This document shows, in pieces, positions 16,031 to 29,093 of a stretch of DNA of 37,565 nucleotides. The DNA is from an uncultured Eubacteriales bacterium. Its GTDB lineage: Bacteria > Bacillota > Clostridia > Peptostreptococcales > Anaerovoracaceae. Under the pieces are notes generated by a model. The model was not told where the DNA came from. It did not search any database and saw only the letters and a list, made by a program, of their open reading frames with translations. Numbering within the stretch: the stretch's first letter is position 1; every line of letters starts with the position of its first letter. The position numbers and the translations under genes were made by a program. The stretch covers positions 1 to 37,565 of the forward strand of contig CACYHR010000033.1 in assembly GCA_902774265.1 (NCBI GenBank), written 5' to 3'.

Positions 16031-17614
16031 ATGGATAGGGAAGAAAGAGTTGTGAGTCTTGCGAAGCCTGTTAAGAAGGGGCTGGGAAAGCTGTTGTTCA
16101 GCAGATTTTTTATTATCGCGCTTCTGCTGATACTGCAGGTCGCGCTTATGGTACTGGTGTACGTGTATTTTACCGAAAAGCTGCCGATACTGCTGCATGT
16201 ACAGTGGATATTCACTTTTGTAATGATTTTGTTCCTCTTTAACAGCAGTATGGATTCATCCGCAAAGCTGACGTGGATGCTGGTTATTTCCATTCTTCCG
16301 ATACCGGGAGCTTTTATGCTGCTGTGGACCCAGTCGAATTTCGGGCACAAGTATACTACCAGACTCATTTCAGAACAGATCAATAATACTAAGGAAATTC
16401 TCGAACAGCCTGAGAATGTCGTCAAAGAGATAGAGCATGACGGTTCCGGTACGGATGATCTGAGCAAGTACCTGAATAATACAGGCTGCTTCCCGGTATA
16501 TGACAAAACCGAAGTCACTTATTTCCCGCTTGGCGAAGATAAGTTCAGGGCTATGCTAGAAGAGCTCGAAAAGGCCGAGAAATACATATTCATGGAATAC
16601 TTTATAGTCGAAGAGGGCTATATGTGGGGACGCATTCTCGATGTGCTGATACGCAAGGCACAGGAGGGCGTTGAAGTACGCATGATGTACGACGGCATGT
16701 GTGAGATGTCCACACTTCCGGTCAATTATTACAGGCTACTTGAAGCTAAGGGTATAAAGGCCAGAGCATTTGCACCGATACAGGCATTCGTGTCTTCACA
16801 TTACAATTATCGCGATCACCGCAAGATCCTGGTAATTGACGGCAAAGTCGCATTCAACGGCGGCGTCAATCTCGCTGATGAATACATCAACCGCATAGAG
16901 AGATTCGGTCACTGGAAGGATACAGCAGTCATGATGAAGGGTCCTGCAGCAAGGAGCTTTGCGCTGATGTTCCTGCAGATGTGGAATATCAGAGATGAAG
17001 ACGGGGATAAAATCGGGGATTATGAGAAATGGCTTTCCCTGCCTGTATATGAATCCGGTAATGCTTCCGGATATGTAATGCCGTACTGCGACGAGCCTCT
17101 TGACGAATACAAGGCAGGCGAAGCGGTTTACATGGATATTCTTTACCGCGCTACTGATTATGTGCATATTATGTCGCCTTATCTTATTCTGGACGGCGAG
17201 CTTGAAACAGCTCTCTGCTTTGCCGCACAGCGCGGAGTCGATGTGAAACTCATACTTCCGGGCATTCCTGATAAGAAACTTGCATACTCGCTTGCCAAGA
17301 CGCATTACATGAAGCTGACCGATGCCGGTGTAAAGGTATATGAATATACACCGGGATTCGTACACGCAAAGGTCTTTGTCAGCGATGATACAAAGGCGGT
17401 TGTCGGTACTATCAACCTCGATTACAGGAGCCTGTATCACCATTTCGAGTGCGCTACATATATGTACAAAACAGACTGTATCGCTGATATCGAAAAGGAT
17501 TTCCTGGATACTCTGGCAAAATGCAGAGTCGTGACTGCAGAGACCATAAAGAACGAGAAGTTCTCATACAAGCTTATGGGCGGACTTGCAAAGATGATCG
17601 CGCCTCTGATGTGA
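16031..17614 (+). CDS. cls: cardiolipin synthase, phospholipase D type
   Basis: A 527-residue membrane-bound enzyme that joins two phosphatidylglycerols to give cardiolipin and glycerol. Two or three N-terminal membrane helices (about 17-110) precede two HKD phosphodiesterase motifs. The first has H263, K265 and D270 (HRKILVID, followed by NGGVNLADEY). The second has H445, K447 and D452 (HAKVFVSD, followed by GTINLDYRSL). Both catalytic motifs are complete, and the length fits the bacterial PLD-type ClsA group (about 480-510 residues) with a short extension. The start has GGAG (16021-16024) 6 nt upstream. The MATE gene begins almost at once after the stop, so the two are probably cotranscribed. 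Its position after a tension-sensitive channel gene fits an envelope theme, but linkage alone does not prove it. Confidence 0.93.
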   Translation: MDREERVVSLAKPVKKGLGKLLFSRFFIIALLLILQVALMVLVYVYFTEKLPILLHVQWIFTFVMILFLFNSSMDSSAKLTWMLVISILPIPGAFMLLWTQSNFGHKYTTRLISEQINNTKEILEQPENVVKEIEHDGSGTDDLSKYLNNTGCFPVYDKTEVTYFPLGEDKFRAMLEELEKAEKYIFMEYFIVEEGYMWGRILDVLIRKAQEGVEVRMMYDGMCEMSTLPVNYYRLLEAKGIKARAFAPIQAFVSSHYNYRDHRKILVIDGKVAFNGGVNLADEYINRIERFGHWKDTAVMMKGPAARSFALMFLQMWNIRDEDGDKIGDYEKWLSLPVYESGNASGYVMPYCDEPLDEYKAGEAVYMDILYRATDYVHIMSPYLILDGELETALCFAAQRGVDVKLILPGIPDKKLAYSLAKTHYMKLTDAGVKVYEYTPGFVHAKVFVSDDTKAVVGTINLDYRSLYHHFECATYMYKTDCIADIEKDFLDTLAKCRVVTAETIKNEKFSYKLMGGLAKMIAPLM

Positions 17615-17643: not shown

Positions 17644-19125
17644 ATGATTTCTCATTTCGGAGGAGGTATTATCATTTCAGGCAGTAATAATAACAAAAAT
17701 AATATAATAAGCGGCGCCGACGGCGACAATAACAATCACAACAGCGCCGGCAAAAGCGCTGACAGCAGTACCGCTGTCAGGAGCGGTGATGTCACCGACA
17801 GACAGATAATAAAGGATATAGTAAAGATAGGCGTCCCATCTTTCTTCGAGACGCTGTTTACTACTGTTTCAAATATCATAGATTCGAAGATGGTTTCGGC
17901 GATGGGCGTAACTGCGATTTCTGCAGTTTCGGTTACCGCGCCGCCGAGGCTTTTTATTCTCAGCGTTTTCATTGCGATGAATACCGTTATCACGAGCCTT
18001 GTTGCAAAGTGCGTGGGAGAAAACGACAGAGAGACGGCCAACCGCCATTTCGACTCGATAATCAAGATAGTTATCGTGCTGAGCATTATTTTTTCCATAA
18101 TCTCAGTCGCACTGGCGCGTCCGATCATGTTTATTTGTTCGCATCAGATGGATACGCTGGACGCCTCGGTAACATATTTCAGGATAGTGATGGCCGCCCT
18201 TACATTCAACACTGTCTATATGACGATCAATGCAGCTCTCAGAGGCTGCGGCCACACAGGTCTGACTTTCACATCCAATGTCATATTCTGCTTCGTAAAT
18301 ATATTTTTCAATTACCTTCTCATCGAGGGGCATATGGGATTCCCGGCGCTCGGCATCGCAGGAGCAGCGATCGCGACAGCAGCCGGCTGGGCAGCAGCAT
18401 TCGTGTTTATGGTCATTATGGGATGCAAAAAGGATCTGTTTGTAAATATCCCGTACTGCATCAGCCGCAAGTATAAGATCTCCCGCGAAGGTACAGAGGA
18501 GATCAGGACGATGTCGCGCAGCACTATTACTGACGGCCTGGCAACGAGGGTAAGTATCCTTATCATCGGATCCATCGTCGCGAGGATAGGATCATACCAG
18601 ATGGCGGTTTATTCGGTAGGTACACATCTGATGAGCGTCAATCAGGCACTGGGGACAGGTCTCATGACGTCGGGAGTCGTACTGATCGGGAGATGTTTCG
18701 GTGCGAAGGACAAGGCGCTGCTGAACAGATATAAAAAACAGATCATCAGACTGAGTTATTTTACTGCAGTACCGCTCGGCCTTGCAATAATACTCGGAGG
18801 CAGATGGTTCTACGGGTTCTTCAGCAGTGATCCCGAATTCATCCATATGGGCGCGGTTTCATGTATATTTATCGGTGTGATCACACTGAGCCAGACCCTC
18901 AAATTCTCATATACAGGCTGTCTGCAGGGAGTCGGAGCCATGAAGGAGGTAATGAGAGCAAGTATTATCTCCTTTGCAGGTGTAAATCTCGGAGTTCTGG
19001 CGCTGACGGTTTTCGTGCTTGATATGGGTATCTGGGGCGCATGGACCGGATCGCTTGCATCACAGACATTCCAGGCATTCATGCTGTGGAGATATACGAA
19101 GAAGCTTGACGCATTTAAGGAATAA
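17644..19125 (+). CDS. MATE family multidrug/cation exporter
   Basis: A 12-helix exporter of the MATE family (NorM/DinF type), which uses a Na+ or H+ gradient to expel drugs or metabolites. IIKDIVKIGVPSFFETLFT with IDSKMVSAMG in the first helix pair, and the internal repeat starting near SRSTITDGLATRVSI, are typical. The start is uncertain. ATG 17644 (and 17632) lack a ribosome binding site, whereas a strong GGAGGAGG at 17659-17666 lies inside the reading frame and would best serve an ATT codon at 17674. With either start the protein opens with about 40-50 low-complexity residues rich in Asn, Ser, Asp and Gly. It lies 29 bp after cls (by the ATG 17644 start) and 35 bp before the CARF-HEPN candidate. 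Confidence 0.88.
   Translation: MISHFGGGIIISGSNNNKNNIISGADGDNNNHNSAGKSADSSTAVRSGDVTDRQIIKDIVKIGVPSFFETLFTTVSNIIDSKMVSAMGVTAISAVSVTAPPRLFILSVFIAMNTVITSLVAKCVGENDRETANRHFDSIIKIVIVLSIIFSIISVALARPIMFICSHQMDTLDASVTYFRIVMAALTFNTVYMTINAALRGCGHTGLTFTSNVIFCFVNIFFNYLLIEGHMGFPALGIAGAAIATAAGWAAAFVFMVIMGCKKDLFVNIPYCISRKYKISREGTEEIRTMSRSTITDGLATRVSILIIGSIVARIGSYQMAVYSVGTHLMSVNQALGTGLMTSGVVLIGRCFGAKDKALLNRYKKQIIRLSYFTAVPLGLAIILGGRWFYGFFSSDPEFIHMGAVSCIFIGVITLSQTLKFSYTGCLQGVGAMKEVMRASIISFAGVNLGVLALTVFVLDMGIWGAWTGSLASQTFQAFMLWRYTKKLDAFKE
17659..17676 (+). promoter_or_regulatory. strong Shine-Dalgarno inside the annotated MATE frame, facing an ATT codon
   Basis: GGAGGAGG is followed by TATTATC and then ATT at 17674-17676 in the MATE frame, giving 7 nt from GGAGG. 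No ATG, GTG or TTG lies at suitable spacing. The same eight bases encode Gly-Gly-Gly if translation begins at 17644, so they could also be coincidence. Confidence 0.4.
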
Positions 19126-19160
19126 AGAAGATATAGATATTGTACGAGGGTAAACAAAAA

Positions 19161-21053
19161 ATGAAACAAAGTGTAATAGTCACATCACTGAACACCGCAG
19201 TCGAAAGGAACAGGCTGAGTTATTATCATTTCAGCGACGGAATTAATAATTTATACTGCGACGCTCTGTCGGCTGCTGAGGCGGGCACCAAATATCTGCT
19301 ATCAAAATACAGGATAGACAGCATATTGAGCTTTGGCAGCGAATCGGCATTCAATTCCGCTGATGATACCGGGATCATGAAGCTGAGAGACGGCAAGGCT
19401 TTTTATGCTACGGATAACTGTGATCTTTCGAAATACAGCCTGTACAGATACAGACTTGCGGAATATCTTGATGAGATAGACGCTGAACTGCAGGATGACA
19501 GGGAACTGCTCGATGAAGAGGTATGCAAGAAAGCGGAAAAGTTCATCAGGAATTATTTCAATGAAAAAGTAAGCGCCGGCGGATCTCACAAATTCAACAG
19601 ATTTTTTGACAGGCTCTCAAATGATAAAGAACTCCGGATGGATTTTGAGAATGAGCTCATTAAAGCTTCTTCGGCTATGGGAGCAGATCCGGACAGTCTG
19701 CTGAGATGGTCCAAAAACTATCTGTACAGCGAATTAAGAGACGCCAACAAACTGCATCTGCCCGAAAGCAACGAGAATGTGACGATATCTTTTATTTCCT
19801 CGGGACCTGATGATGACAGCGGCAAATCCTTCACTGATCTGCTGATCGCAAATATTGACAAGATTTACGGCATTTCCGAGGAGCAAAATGTCGAAGTCGA
19901 TGTTTATCTGTGCATGCAGAATGATAATGCCAAAGACTCTTTTGTTTTCAGCAGCCTTATGGAAGCTGTCAGGTCCATGCCTGATTCCCAGGTCAATATC
20001 GTAAAGATAATCATGGCGGATGCGCCATCAGAAAGGCTGTCATGCTCGATCTCAGATGATACTGAGAAGCTGGGAGTGTACGAGCTGATGTCCGCAACGA
20101 GGGCATTCCTCAAATACGGCAAAACAGACATGCTGATGGATTTCAGACGATCATCCGGAATAAAAAACGAAAAAATTGACCATATGCTGTATGCTATGAG
20201 AAATATCGATACCGGCATTTCTCTCTGCGATATTTCCGACATAGAACGCGGCATCGAGAGTCTGAGAGATTTCTTCGCAGATGGATGCTACATCGAAGGA
20301 GACAGTTTCACGGAGAAGTATTTCAACGTGATCGCAAAGGGCATCATGCACGACTACGGGACACTGATCAGCGGCGAGAGCGTAGAATTTATAGATCTGG
20401 TAAAATGGGCATACCGCAAAGGCTTCTGGCAGCAGACACTGACCCTGATCGAATCGAGAGCGCCGCGGGATTTCGTCGAGAAGGGCATATATTATTACTG
20501 CGATTCGCCTGAAAGCAAAGAAGATACAGTAAAGAAATTAGGTAAGATCTACTATGATCTCAAGCCTTTTGAAAAATATAAGCTCGAGGATGTGGAACAT
20601 TATTTTGTCAAGTTCTACAACAGATGGAAAGCGCCGCATCCCAAGGATAACAGAGAATTCCAGCTCGAGTACGCAAAGTTAAGAGTAAAGGAGCTTGATG
20701 AAGAAGATCCTTCAATCATCAGAGCGTATACTTTGTGCCCTGACAGGAATGCACTTGAGGAGCTGCTCTTTGCATATTACTATCTCGGTGATGTACGAAA
20801 TGCCACAAACCATGCTCAGGACGAGTTCAGCGGATTCGCTTCGATCATGGATGAATCGGATGTAAGCGAGAGGATGACATTGATCAGCCAGGCTGTGGAA
20901 TACTTCATCCACTCTTATGAGGTGGTGACAGAACTGCTCGCGAGCAGAGATAAGAAGGATGATGATACTGAAGTCATTCTGATCAAGTCATCGGAGATTG
21001 CGGACTACGCCAATGTGTTAAGAAAGGCATCCCGCGATGAACACAGGAAATAA
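19161..21053 (+). CDS. orphan CARF-HEPN-like ribonuclease (Csm6/Csx1/TM1812-type candidate)
   Basis: A 630-residue soluble protein. It opens with a Rossmann-like strand (KQSVIVTSLNTA) and has a second block around 250-330 (VDVYLCMQ at about 246-253, DSFVFSSLMEAV, ELMSATRAFLKYGKTDM). I recall this layout in TM1812/Csx-type CARF proteins, whose usual D-x-GG-x-R-like motif is here a divergent MQNDNAKDSF. FWQQTLTLIESRAP follows near 430. In the C-terminal helical part, R546-NATN-H551 matches the Rx4-6H active site of HEPN ribonucleases, with the favoured polar residue after Arg. Known relatives bind cyclic oligoadenylate and cleave RNA during type III CRISPR immunity. No cas gene or array is present here. 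ATG 19161 follows GAGGG (19146-19150). The TTG at 19140 is less likely. It is probably cotranscribed with the MATE gene. The family call is by eye. Confidence 0.55.
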   Translation: MKQSVIVTSLNTAVERNRLSYYHFSDGINNLYCDALSAAEAGTKYLLSKYRIDSILSFGSESAFNSADDTGIMKLRDGKAFYATDNCDLSKYSLYRYRLAEYLDEIDAELQDDRELLDEEVCKKAEKFIRNYFNEKVSAGGSHKFNRFFDRLSNDKELRMDFENELIKASSAMGADPDSLLRWSKNYLYSELRDANKLHLPESNENVTISFISSGPDDDSGKSFTDLLIANIDKIYGISEEQNVEVDVYLCMQNDNAKDSFVFSSLMEAVRSMPDSQVNIVKIIMADAPSERLSCSISDDTEKLGVYELMSATRAFLKYGKTDMLMDFRRSSGIKNEKIDHMLYAMRNIDTGISLCDISDIERGIESLRDFFADGCYIEGDSFTEKYFNVIAKGIMHDYGTLISGESVEFIDLVKWAYRKGFWQQTLTLIESRAPRDFVEKGIYYYCDSPESKEDTVKKLGKIYYDLKPFEKYKLEDVEHYFVKFYNRWKAPHPKDNREFQLEYAKLRVKELDEEDPSIIRAYTLCPDRNALEELLFAYYYLGDVRNATNHAQDEFSGFASIMDESDVSERMTLISQAVEYFIHSYEVVTELLASRDKKDDDTEVILIKSSEIADYANVLRKASRDEHRK

Positions 21054-21085
21054 GCCCGGATGAGAAATAAGTCCGGTTGAAGTCA

Positions 21086-21121
21086 AAAAGGATTCCGTTA
21101 GATTTTGCGGGATCTTTTTTT
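21086..21121 (+). terminator. rho-independent terminator after the CARF-HEPN candidate
   Basis: AAAGGATTCCG pairs with CGGGATCTTTT (two G-T wobbles, loop about 10 nt) and the 3' arm runs into seven T residues. It ends the cls-MATE-CARF/HEPN transcription unit 33 bp after the stop codon. Confidence 0.82.
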
Positions 21122-21149
21122 GGTGCCGATTTTTGATGCCGATACTTGA

Positions 21150-26066: not shown

Positions 26067-29000
26067 ATGAGTGCAAATAAGAGGATTATACTGGGAATAC
26101 TGGCACACGTGGATGCAGGCAAGACGACTCTTTCCGAAGCGGTGCTGTATCGCACGGGTGAGATACGGAAACCGGGACGGGTAGATCACGGGGATACGCT
26201 GCTTGATGATGATTCCATCGAGAGAAACAGGGGAATCACTATTTTTTCAAGGCAGGCGGGGTTCAGTATCGGTGAAACGGCTGATGTTACACTGATCGAT
26301 ACACCGGGACATGTTGATTTTGCGGCAGAAACGGAAAGATCTCTGTCTGTGATCGACTATGCTCTTCTGGTTGTGAGCGGATCGGAAGGCGTGCAGGCTC
26401 ACACCAGGACGCTGTATAGTATGCTGCAGGAAAGAAAGATACCGGTTTTCATATTTGTCAATAAGATGGATATCGCCGTCAGGGCAAAAGAGGATATTGT
26501 TGCTGAGCTGGCGGAAGAACTCGGCGCCGGAGCTGTGGATTTCAGCGGCGCCGGAATATCAGGGCATGCAGTGAATGATGCATTAAATGAATTCTCCGAT
26601 GAGTTTATTGACGGGGTGACCTTGCATTCATCTGCTCTTGCTGAGAAAGTTCTTGAAGATGAGCCGCTTAATGATGAGGATATTGCCCGGGCTGTTTCCA
26701 GGCGGGAGATTGTGCCGTGTATGTTTGGCTCTGCACTTAAAATGCAGGGAATCGATGAATTGCTCGAAGTGATAGGAAGATTTACTGTGCAGCCTGAATA
26801 TGGGAGCGAGTTCGGTGCAAGGGTGTACAAGGTCGTCAATGCGGAAGACGGAGAAAGATTATGCTTTATAAAGGTGACCGGCGGGGAACTCAGAGTCAGA
26901 GAAAAAATCGGCGGCTGTCACGCGGAGAAGGGTGAAAACATAATTGAAGCGGGAACGGCCGGTGCAGATAGCAGCGGAAAGTCCGGAGATCCCGGCAGAG
27001 CTGGAGGTACGGGAAGATCAGCAGGTTATGACGGTCCGGACAGACCGGGGGACTCTGGAAGTCTGGAAGGCAGCATAAAGGAATTTGACTGGGAAGACAA
27101 GGTCAATCAGATAAGAATATACTCAGGCAGCAGGTTTCGGACGGCCGAGTCGGCGCCGGCCGGCACGGCTGTGGCCGTGACGGGGCTCTCGCGAGCCATG
27201 CCGGGTGACGGCATCGGCGCCGAACTCCCGCTTGCCGGCCGCAGCATCAGACCTTTTATGGTTTATACGGTAACAGGACCGGAAGGAAGGGATCCTTATC
27301 TTGTGATGAAGGATCTGGAAAAACTGGCTCAGGAAGATCCGGCTCTCAGCATCAGGTGGCGAGCCGACACATCGGAAATAGAAATAAGACTGATGGGTCA
27401 GGTTCAGCTTGAGGTACTGCAGGCTATAATAAAAGAAAGATTCGGATATGATGTTTCCTTCGGACAGGGCAGCGTGCTTTATCTTGAGACGATAGACGGA
27501 GTGTACGAAGGAGTAGGTCATTTTGAACCTCTCCGCCACTATGCAGAGGTACATCTAATTATAGAGCCGGGCGAAAGAGGCAGCGGAGTGGTTATCACCA
27601 GCGTGACCCCTGAGGATGAGCTGGCCAGAAACTGGCAGAGGCTGATAATGACCCACCTTGAGGAGAAGGAGCATGCCGGTGTTCTGACGGGTTCGCCACT
27701 TACCGATGTCAGGATCAGTCTGGCCGCCGGAAGAGCGCATCCAAAGCATACAAACGGGGGAGATTTCCGCGAAGCAACATACAGAGCTATCCGAAATGCC
27801 CTTATGCAGGCAAGACGCGACGGCAGGGCTGTTCTGCTCGAACCCTGGACTGATTATGATATCCGGCTTCCTGCCGGAAGCGTGGGCCGCGCTATGACAG
27901 ATATCAAACAGATGGGCGGCACTCAGGATGAGCTGGAACAGACAGCTGATTCTGCAAGAATAAGAGGGCGTGTTCCGGCTTCGGAAATAGCTAATTATCA
28001 GCAGGTGCTGGCAGGATATACTTCAGGTGAAGGCAGGCTTTCGTGTTCGCCTGCAGGATATGAGCCATGCCATGATGCTGAAGCTGTAATTGAAAGGATT
28101 GATTATGATCCTGAACATGATGTGGATGATCCGGCCGACTCGGTATTCGTAAACCACAGCGGCAGCGATATCGTCAAATGGGATGAGGTGCCTCAGCATA
28201 TGCACATTGCAAGTGTGCTTTTAAGGCGGCAAAGCGACATAAGCGGACGGGATGGCGGAATGTACGGATATACGAGTTTGGATGATTCCGGCGCATACGG
28301 TGCTTCACTGAATAATGCTTTTGCCGGTGACGCAAAGGAACGGGAAAAAAGGAGGATAGCCGCGGAAAAAGAACTGAGACGTATCTTCGAACGAACCTAT
28401 GGTCCGGTCAAAGAAGCACGCCACAGGGACGCGCGCGAATCCGATTTCCGCAAAAAAAAGCCTGAACTTTCTGAAGAGGAGGCTGCATGGAATGCAGCCC
28501 GCAATGAGGAAATCAGGGCAAAGCACATGCAAAGCGGAGGTACGGGCAAGACGGCATCATCGGCCTCATCAATTAAACCAAGCGCGAACACAAAAGGCCA
28601 TCCAGCTTCATCCGCTTCATCAGGAACTGCGGCCCGGAATGGCAGCCGCAATGCCACAAGCCGGAATGAAGCGGAGATTCCGCTGATACTAATCGACGGA
28701 TATAATCTGATTTTTGCCGATCAATATCTGACAGAACTTGCGGACAGGGATGTCGGTTCGGCGAGAGACCAGCTGCTCGAAAGACTTTGCAATTATGCAG
28801 CATACACTGGCTGCGAGATGACGGTTGTATTCGATGCATATAAGGTACCGCAGGGAACGGGTTCGGAAGAGAATTTCCACGGAGTGAAGGTGATATACAC
28901 AGCCGAAAACGAGCCGGCCGATATAAGAATGGGTCTGATCACGGGCTCATTAAAGAAAAAGGAATTCTATGTGGTTTCTTCGGACAGTCTCGTGCAGCAG

Positions 29001-29093
29001 GATGCGTGGGGCCACGGGGCTCTCAGGATATCATCGCATGAATTCATGCATCTGCTCGCAGACACCGAGCAGGAAATCCGAAGCCGCCTTTGA
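26067..29093 (+). CDS. TetM/EF-G-like translational GTPase fused to a YacP/Rae1-type NYN nuclease domain
   Basis: A 1008-residue fusion. Residues ~5-720 are a ribosomal-protection-type GTPase with intact AHVDAGKTT (13-21), RGITIF (55-60), DTPGH (78-82) and NKMD (132-135), followed by EF-G-like domains II-V. A Gly/Ser/Asp-rich insertion lies near 295-335. A charged helical linker and a Ser/Ala/Lys low-complexity stretch (about 740-870) lead to a NYN/PIN-like domain at 872-1008. It has D877-G-Y-N, D923 in VVFDA, D952 in ENEPADIRM and D973 in SSDS, closely following B. subtilis YacP (Rae1), an A-site mRNA endonuclease. It should bind ribosomes, remodel the A site by GTP hydrolysis, and perhaps cut mRNA there. 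Tetracycline protection is possible but not implied. AGGA lies only 3 nt before ATG. It is a single-gene unit with its own promoter. Confidence 0.85.
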   Translation: MSANKRIILGILAHVDAGKTTLSEAVLYRTGEIRKPGRVDHGDTLLDDDSIERNRGITIFSRQAGFSIGETADVTLIDTPGHVDFAAETERSLSVIDYALLVVSGSEGVQAHTRTLYSMLQERKIPVFIFVNKMDIAVRAKEDIVAELAEELGAGAVDFSGAGISGHAVNDALNEFSDEFIDGVTLHSSALAEKVLEDEPLNDEDIARAVSRREIVPCMFGSALKMQGIDELLEVIGRFTVQPEYGSEFGARVYKVVNAEDGERLCFIKVTGGELRVREKIGGCHAEKGENIIEAGTAGADSSGKSGDPGRAGGTGRSAGYDGPDRPGDSGSLEGSIKEFDWEDKVNQIRIYSGSRFRTAESAPAGTAVAVTGLSRAMPGDGIGAELPLAGRSIRPFMVYTVTGPEGRDPYLVMKDLEKLAQEDPALSIRWRADTSEIEIRLMGQVQLEVLQAIIKERFGYDVSFGQGSVLYLETIDGVYEGVGHFEPLRHYAEVHLIIEPGERGSGVVITSVTPEDELARNWQRLIMTHLEEKEHAGVLTGSPLTDVRISLAAGRAHPKHTNGGDFREATYRAIRNALMQARRDGRAVLLEPWTDYDIRLPAGSVGRAMTDIKQMGGTQDELEQTADSARIRGRVPASEIANYQQVLAGYTSGEGRLSCSPAGYEPCHDAEAVIERIDYDPEHDVDDPADSVFVNHSGSDIVKWDEVPQHMHIASVLLRRQSDISGRDGGMYGYTSLDDSGAYGASLNNAFAGDAKEREKRRIAAEKELRRIFERTYGPVKEARHRDARESDFRKKKPELSEEEAAWNAARNEEIRAKHMQSGGTGKTASSASSIKPSANTKGHPASSASSGTAARNGSRNATSRNEAEIPLILIDGYNLIFADQYLTELADRDVGSARDQLLERLCNYAAYTGCEMTVVFDAYKVPQGTGSEENFHGVKVIYTAENEPADIRMGLITGSLKKKEFYVVSSDSLVQQDAWGHGALRISSHEFMHLLADTEQEIRSRL

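Follow-up and report, generated by a model that had tools for sequence, protein, structure and literature searches.

The 37,565-nt contig CACYHR010000033.1 of an uncultured Eubacteriales bacterium of the Anaerovoracaceae, here called the window, carries a gene whose 630-aa product a sequence-only reading had described as an orphan CARF-HEPN-like ribonuclease (RNase). CARF-HEPN RNases have been described mainly as effectors of type III CRISPR systems, in which cyclic oligoadenylates made by Cas10 switch them on. In the window the gene follows that of a MATE transporter, 35 nt separating the MATE stop codon from the ATG at 19161, and given this gap the two genes are likely co-transcribed, as had been proposed. 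The same proposal included the cardiolipin synthase gene further upstream, but a role for it found no support: cardiolipin synthase is not among the recurrent neighbour clusters of the family and is therefore probably an incidental neighbour. The MATE gene had been mentioned in passing only, and its recurrence as a partner of CARF-HEPN genes, described below, had been missed. The coordinates of all features are collected in Table 1.

Table 1. Features of the CARF-HEPN/MATE locus in the window.
Feature	Coordinates	Strand	Basis
Cardiolipin synthase gene, upstream of MATE	16031..17614	+	TIGR04265, E=6.1e-94
MATE transporter gene, recurrent partner, clade B	17644..19125	+	Pfam MatE, TIGR00797, MATE tree, adjacency survey
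GAGGG, likely ribosome-binding site of the CARF-HEPN gene	19146..19150	+	Predicted from sequence; 10 nt 5' of ATG
CARF-HEPN gene (ATG start, 630 aa)	19161..21053	+	PADLOC, AlphaFold2, Foldseek, VIA-align
N-terminal CARF-like Rossmann domain	19161..20069	+	Residues 1 to about 303; helical insert at about 75-190
Degenerate CARF ligand-strand motif YLCMQN	19905..19922	+	Residues 249-254; alignment column counts
Helical linker and HEPN region	20070..20972	+	Residues 304-604
HEPN RNxxxH motif, R546-N-A-T-N-H551	20796..20813	+	Conservation
Probable intrinsic terminator 3' of the CARF-HEPN gene, hairpin ending in T7	21085..21121	+	Fold

The CARF-HEPN frame is also opened by a TTG 21 nt 5' of the ATG. 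Since 58 of the 60 aligned sequences have methionine in their first column and GAGGG lies 10 nt upstream, the start at 19161 is supported. RNA folding of 21050-21130 gave -25.3 kcal/mol (z -2.63), a value reached by 1 of 200 shuffles; the list from a consensus terminator scan lacks this hairpin. The MATE frame is open from 17521, and its start codon could lie further 5' than 17644. Its product matched Pfam MatE (PF01554, E=1.8e-40) in two stretches and TIGR00797 (E=4.5e-55). The partner MATEs at three further loci (L034, L101, and L053; loci of our survey are numbered L, genomes G, and contigs C) likewise hold two MatE repeats, and none of these four proteins showed an extra domain over the Pfam cut-off. 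An Asn-rich low-complexity N-terminal stretch (17644-17790) precedes the transporter domain of the window MATE.

The identity of the protein as a CARF-HEPN protein, a predicted sensor-ribonuclease like Csm6 and Csx1, is confirmed by several lines of evidence. The PADLOC CARF2--CARF_HEPN models matched 60 of 60 scanned relatives and the window protein itself at E = 2.4e-25, so that the match is not due to chance; among the models hit are some for Csx1 that bear a type III signalling label. The AlphaFold2 model was confident (pLDDT 86.6, pTM 0.72), and Foldseek and VIA-align showed that it resembles Csx1-Crn2, Csm6, and Csx1 along its length, with a CARF Rossmann sensor domain followed by a C-terminal HEPN domain with the Rx4-6H motif. 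Less favourable were the Foldseek TM-scores to Csx1/Csm6, which were low (query-normalised 0.20-0.40 in the first 14 rows), so that domain placement relative to these proteins differs or is uncertain. The R546-H551 motif lies where the sequence-only reading had put it, and two outcomes that would have told against that reading, a fold other than CARF and the loss of R546 or H551 among relatives, were not seen: R546, N547, and H551 are invariant in all 60 rows of alignment A2, and all 81 survey loci carry RNxxxH(A/G). That reading was also right about the VYLCMQ block and the Rossmann part at the N-terminus, both of which are real. VYLCMQN (residues 248-254) occupies a CARF strand at which distant relatives carry MDMQG or MDIQG; among the 60 aligned rows, residue 251 is S in 20, D in 16, and C in 14, and the D is lost in the window protein. 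The canonical CARF motif, which we take to be DxTHG, corresponds to CMQN here. Pfam and NCBIfam assigned no family to the protein; Cellulose_synt, the sole Pfam row up to E 1, had an E of 0.13 and was judged a chance match. Searches of the PDB by sequence gave one row for the single protein, the same cellulose synthase stretch at E 1.2, and none for the profile.

The survey of relatives comprised the window and the best 80 of 101 relatives obtained by scanning genome contigs with an alignment (81 loci); a scan of genome contigs with the single protein found no relative. A CARF open reading frame (ORF) was called in 79 loci, and the HEPN motif of the other two, L078 and L083, was read by direct translation. 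Alignment A2 holds the window and 59 of the 80 loci, the remaining 21 being truncated, split, near-duplicate, already in alignment A1, or devoid of a called ORF. Seventy-eight rows make up the CARF tree, from which partial L064 (for its length) and L078 and L083 (no called ORF) were left out.

As judged by tblastn, a MATE gene adjoins the CARF-HEPN gene in 25 of the 81 loci. It lies upstream and co-directional in 21, downstream in three (L053, L067, and L107), and divergent in one (L105), with a gap below 100 nt in all adjacent loci except L108 (198 nt); in L029, L034, and L036 the two genes overlap by 4 nt. MATE formed the largest recurrent neighbour cluster, present within six genes in 28 loci, the next clusters reaching 12, 6, and 5. 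Counted by gene-level labels, which omit L040 and L041, MATE filled 23 of 146 adjacent slots versus 9 of 740 farther ones (Fisher p 1.6e-12, on loci that are not independent) and was adjacent in 15 of 38 locus clusters at 60% identity; adding L040 and L041 keeps this count at 15, as each falls in a cluster already counted through another locus. By a rough estimate, MATEs make up 0.5% of the genes in these genomes, far below their frequency beside the CARF-HEPN gene.

A tree of 72 MATE rows was then considered, which contained 23 of the 25 adjacent MATEs (fragments L102 and L103 were left out) and a background of 40 loci of the same genomes, taken from the best-scoring listed rows and not at random; two of the 40, L160 and L161, are adjacent MATEs again. 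The CARF-adjacent MATEs form two separate clades with about 17% identity between them. All 12 rows of clade A (support 100) are CARF-adjacent, as are 11 of the 18 rows of clade B. The other seven rows of clade B comprise second copies of adjacent rows (L160 = L106; L161 = L104), four rows 2.4-4.4 kb from CARF (L031, L032, and L033, with L125 as second copy of L033), and one on another contig of a CARF-positive genome (L124). When profiles of the two clades were searched against 393 genomes of the order, clade A gave four strong matches and clade B six, nine of the ten lying in the 14 CARF-positive genomes. All four clade A matches and four of the six clade B matches abut the CARF gene (8 of 10 in total); in G175 the clade B match is divergent from it, about 370 nt apart, and one match that does not abut lies elsewhere in a CARF-positive genome. 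The E limits were self-chosen and at most four candidates were scored per genome. Six of the ten matches are themselves profile rows (G228, G267, and G281; G000, G216, and G481) and therefore match by construction, while four are not (G279, G175, G278, and G447). The telling point is that only one strong match fell in a CARF-negative genome.

With all 78 rows of the CARF tree counted, 12 changes are needed to explain the presence or absence of MATE, and 13 when A, B, and none are treated as separate states. With gene-level labels the number of changes was 14, and with seven loci left out it was 11, two of the seven (L037 and L038) holding more than 1 kb of upstream sequence without MATE. The window carries a clade B MATE, whereas clade A is found in L029 and L041, the relatives nearest to it (about 57-59% identity); in L031 and L032, which come next, a B-type MATE lies three genes from CARF-HEPN. 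The MATE partner has thus been exchanged for a distant member of the superfamily, in one or the other direction, which we read as selection for having some MATE at this position. Mantel tests, from which near-duplicates and fragments were left out, showed that CARF and MATE identities correlate in clade A (rho 0.66, 6 of 9999, 10 pairs).

Several observations weigh against a functional pairing. The corresponding correlation in clade B is weak (rho 0.24, 701 of 9999, 11 pairs). MATEs are common in carrier genomes, with at least 509 MatE domain matches in 20 genomes, at roughly two matches per gene. No MATE is adjacent in 56 of the 81 loci, including a 29-row clade with none, so that a pump next door is not always required; six of the 56 have less than 1 kb of upstream sequence. 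The 24 pairs besides the window are all in records titled metagenome-assembled genome or uncultured, and the named Oribacterium isolates (L081 and L100) have no adjacent MATE. Finally, a short frame in G447, a genome without CARF, encodes a clade-B-like MATE. Taking both sides together, we hold with considerable confidence that the pairing of CARF-HEPN and MATE is functional.

Within the MATE-less clade, L070 (7926-9980), L074 (8002-9972), and L075 (154-2265), all at -1, encode a 650-700-aa protein upstream of CARF-HEPN, in which Pfam found a carboxylesterase domain and whose membrane-looking N-terminus was read from the sequence only. The same type of neighbour also lies directly beside CARF-HEPN in L092 (+1). 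This carboxylesterase-domain, membrane-looking protein is a second recurrent partner of CARF-HEPN.

We also searched for Cas10 and other possible synthases. The genome of the window is 90.8% complete and gave no convincing match to Cas10, SMODS, or mCpol. The Csm1 model (TIGR02578) had no match over its cut-off in 21 genomes with the CARF-HEPN gene or pieces of it, including that of the window. Sub-threshold Csm1 matches occurred in 4 of the 21 and covered model positions 3-107 only, which we take to be the HD end; the one in the genome of the window covers positions 3-86. The Cas10 palm model (PF22335), which also responds to diguanylate cyclases (E. coli control), gave no match in the genome of the window. 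Among the 67 carrier genomes reached (61 distinct, six being reached twice; G252 and G276 hold only pieces of the gene), it had 14 matches over the cut-off in 10. Ten of these were examined by Pfam, with G540:C36, G534:C21, G533:C116, and G521:C103 left out along with rows below the cut-off: two are Cas10 by NCBIfam (Csm1 in G533 and Cmr2 in G540), six are GGDEF proteins, and two are doubtful. Clear Cas10 is thus present in only 2 of the 61 distinct carriers, on contigs other than that of the CARF gene. The two doubtful proteins, L117 (G494; E 2.3e-7) and L122 (G521; E 1.3e-5, which narrowly misses the Pfam cut-off), match only PF22335, with no GGDEF and no NCBIfam match, and are possible divergent Cas10-like polymerases. 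The ORF 3' of the L117 protein has no NCBIfam match and presumably is RAMP-like, by its looks.

SMODS was matched in 4 of the 61 distinct carriers and not in the genome of the window, and the SMODS model found no CD-NTase gene adjacent to the CARF-HEPN gene, as an effector of a cyclic-oligonucleotide-based antiphage signalling system would have. No mCpol match over the cut-off was found in the 61 carriers, a weakly controlled result, in that no control genome passed either. Within the window, Pfam found no cas gene among 20 proteins scanned (the CARF-HEPN protein included), repeats of at least 22 nt with spacing up to 400 formed four two-copy families, none of them CRISPR-array-like, and Rfam gave nothing at the gathering score. 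The view that no CRISPR system lies nearby was thus upheld, and the suggestion that the protein might serve a distant type III locus found no support, as neither the locus nor the 90.8% complete genome yielded the Cas10 expected of a type III ancillary effector. The CARF-HEPN protein looks like an orphan in a family that lives almost without Cas10.

Comparison with known systems sets the family apart. Csx1-Crn2 of Marinitoga (PDB 8y6z, 8y7f, and 8y7g) belongs to type III CRISPR and carries a fused ring nuclease; the window protein aligns to its residues 2-443 with about 12% identity, and no Cas10 was found in its own genome. Csm6 (PDB 5fsh, 6tug, and 8pe3) and Csx1 (4eog and 6qzt) are cyclic-oligoadenylate effectors of type III loci, and no chain in the PDB gave a useful sequence match to the window protein. 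Stand-alone CARF-nuclease genes have already been noted (PMC3710099) and share with the window family a CARF-HEPN outside CRISPR loci (PADLOC CARF2--CARF_HEPN), whereas a MATE partner is not mentioned in the relevant part of that source. The CARF domain of RtcR reads tRNA ends; RtcR is a transcription activator, for which, unlike the window protein, the abstract mentions no HEPN RNase (PMC7790460). CARF families are also treated in PMC4012209 and PMC12669027. A CARF-MATE pair was not found in the literature searched; the 2020 classification of CARF proteins, outside that search, might list such neighbours. Stand-alone CARF nucleases being published, the novelty lies in the MATE partner, which recurs beside this orphan family of CARF-HEPN RNases and is exchangeable; the pairing suggests a module of sensor, RNase, and pump, made up of two genes, that has not been reported.

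The CARF-HEPN gene is patchily distributed, occurring in 17 of 47 genomes of the genus (some as fragments only), 7 of 247 of the family (BLAST), and 14 of 393 of the order (profile). By the titles of their records, relatives belong mostly to rumen and gut Clostridia, with a few in Erysipelotrichaceae, Atopobiaceae, and Spirochaetota, a spread that suggests horizontal transfer. Searches of phage, plasmid, and viral-contig collections found no relative. Fragmentary or weak partial matches (G252:C4, G276:C6, G272:C66 and C140, G261:C13, and G270:C64) are possibly decaying copies. Genome G281 has two copies, L029 with a clade A MATE upstream and L039 without; downstream of the latter lies what we take to be a YitT-like membrane gene.

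Among the other neighbours, one protein cluster lies within three genes of CARF-HEPN in four loci (L043, L047, L097, and L067); its member in L047, encoded two genes upstream, has 117 aa and a STAS domain (Pfam E 5.5e-16). Elsewhere in the window, 26067-29093 encodes a 1008-aa protein with GTP_EFTU, EFG_III, EFG_IV, and EFG_C domains and a C-terminal YacP-like NYN domain, a fusion of translation-factor GTPase and NYN that is, to our knowledge, unusual.

To account for these observations, we tentatively propose, at rather less than even confidence, that the CARF-HEPN protein is an effector RNase independent of Cas10 and acts jointly with a MATE exporter dedicated to it, which would control the ligand by efflux. 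By fold and motif, a CARF sensor sits on a HEPN RNase, and by homology to Csm6/Csx1 a ligand bound to CARF would switch the RNase on. The ligand may be small and nucleotide-like, such as an oligonucleotide, cyclic or linear, or a compound of the nucleoside type; given the absence of recognised synthases, it is probably not, or not usually, a Cas10-made cyclic oligoadenylate. The operon-like pairs are the reason for supposing that MATE exports the ligand or holds it below a threshold, so that efflux would do the job that a ring nuclease does by cleavage. Such export has a precedent in Lactococcus, in which an EmrB-family multidrug pump lowers cyclic di-AMP via active export (PMC6108528). Build-up of the ligand upon phage attack, stress, or a foreign compound would then activate the HEPN RNase, with RNA decay and dormancy, growth stop, or death. 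A more specific version is somewhat more doubtful still: a Cas10-free module of gut and rumen bacteria in which CARF-HEPN is a suicide RNase, MATE efflux replaces the ring nuclease as the off-switch, and a block of efflux or a rise of ligand leads to RNA decay.

Other explanations were weighed. MATEs are classic drug pumps, the genes around the pair in the window serve housekeeping, transport, and signalling and form no defence island, and the phage, plasmid, and viral-contig collections held no copy; the pair might thus be a drug or toxin efflux operon without a defence role, in which MATE exports a rumen or gut antibiotic and CARF-HEPN tunes MATE or stress transcripts. We consider this unlikely, as the type III signalling label of the matched Csx1 models and a patchiness of the kind seen in defence genes speak against it. 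Less probable again is that MATE is an effector or target, the membrane arm of one defence unit that disturbs ion gradients, as CorA and Cam1 reportedly or presumably do in type III systems. The 4-nt gene overlaps would suit this, and membrane effectors do accompany type III nucleotide signalling, CorA, Cam1, and Csx23 sharing with the window family a membrane protein within a nucleotide-signalling defence unit; according to the part of PMC11229360 that treats them, however, these are themselves the sensors of the signal and form part of type III loci, whereas MATE is a secondary transporter. The partner MATEs scanned have no further domain, and since two distant MATE clades serve, ordinary efflux suits better than a specialised pore. 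Equally improbable is an ordinary orphaned type III effector, answering the cyclic oligoadenylate of a Cas10 encoded in the missing 9% of the genome or sometimes acquired, with MATE as a linked passenger: incomplete assembly, the Cas10 of two carriers, the doubtful Cas10-palm proteins of two more, and a fold that is that of cA4- and cA6-binding proteins are in its favour, but clear Cas10 is too rare among carriers, the window protein has lost the D at position 251, and passengers would hardly be expected to form MATE clades that occur mostly next to CARF. Adjacency without functional meaning, inherited along with a small number of ancestral neighbourhoods, agrees with the many loci without MATE and the parallel descent of clade A pairs, yet is the least probable in view of both gene orders and a divergent pair, two distant MATE clades, 12 tree changes, and the rank of MATE as the largest neighbour cluster.

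A Cas10-poor family whose active site is conserved and beside which a transporter recurs raises the question of which ligand it reads, and MATE offers a handle on it: once its substrate is found, the ligand may follow. If the efflux-controlled RNase proposed here is true, a toxic RNase with its threshold set by efflux would be a new control of nucleotide-type immunity, and multidrug pumps would be linked to bacterial immune signalling.
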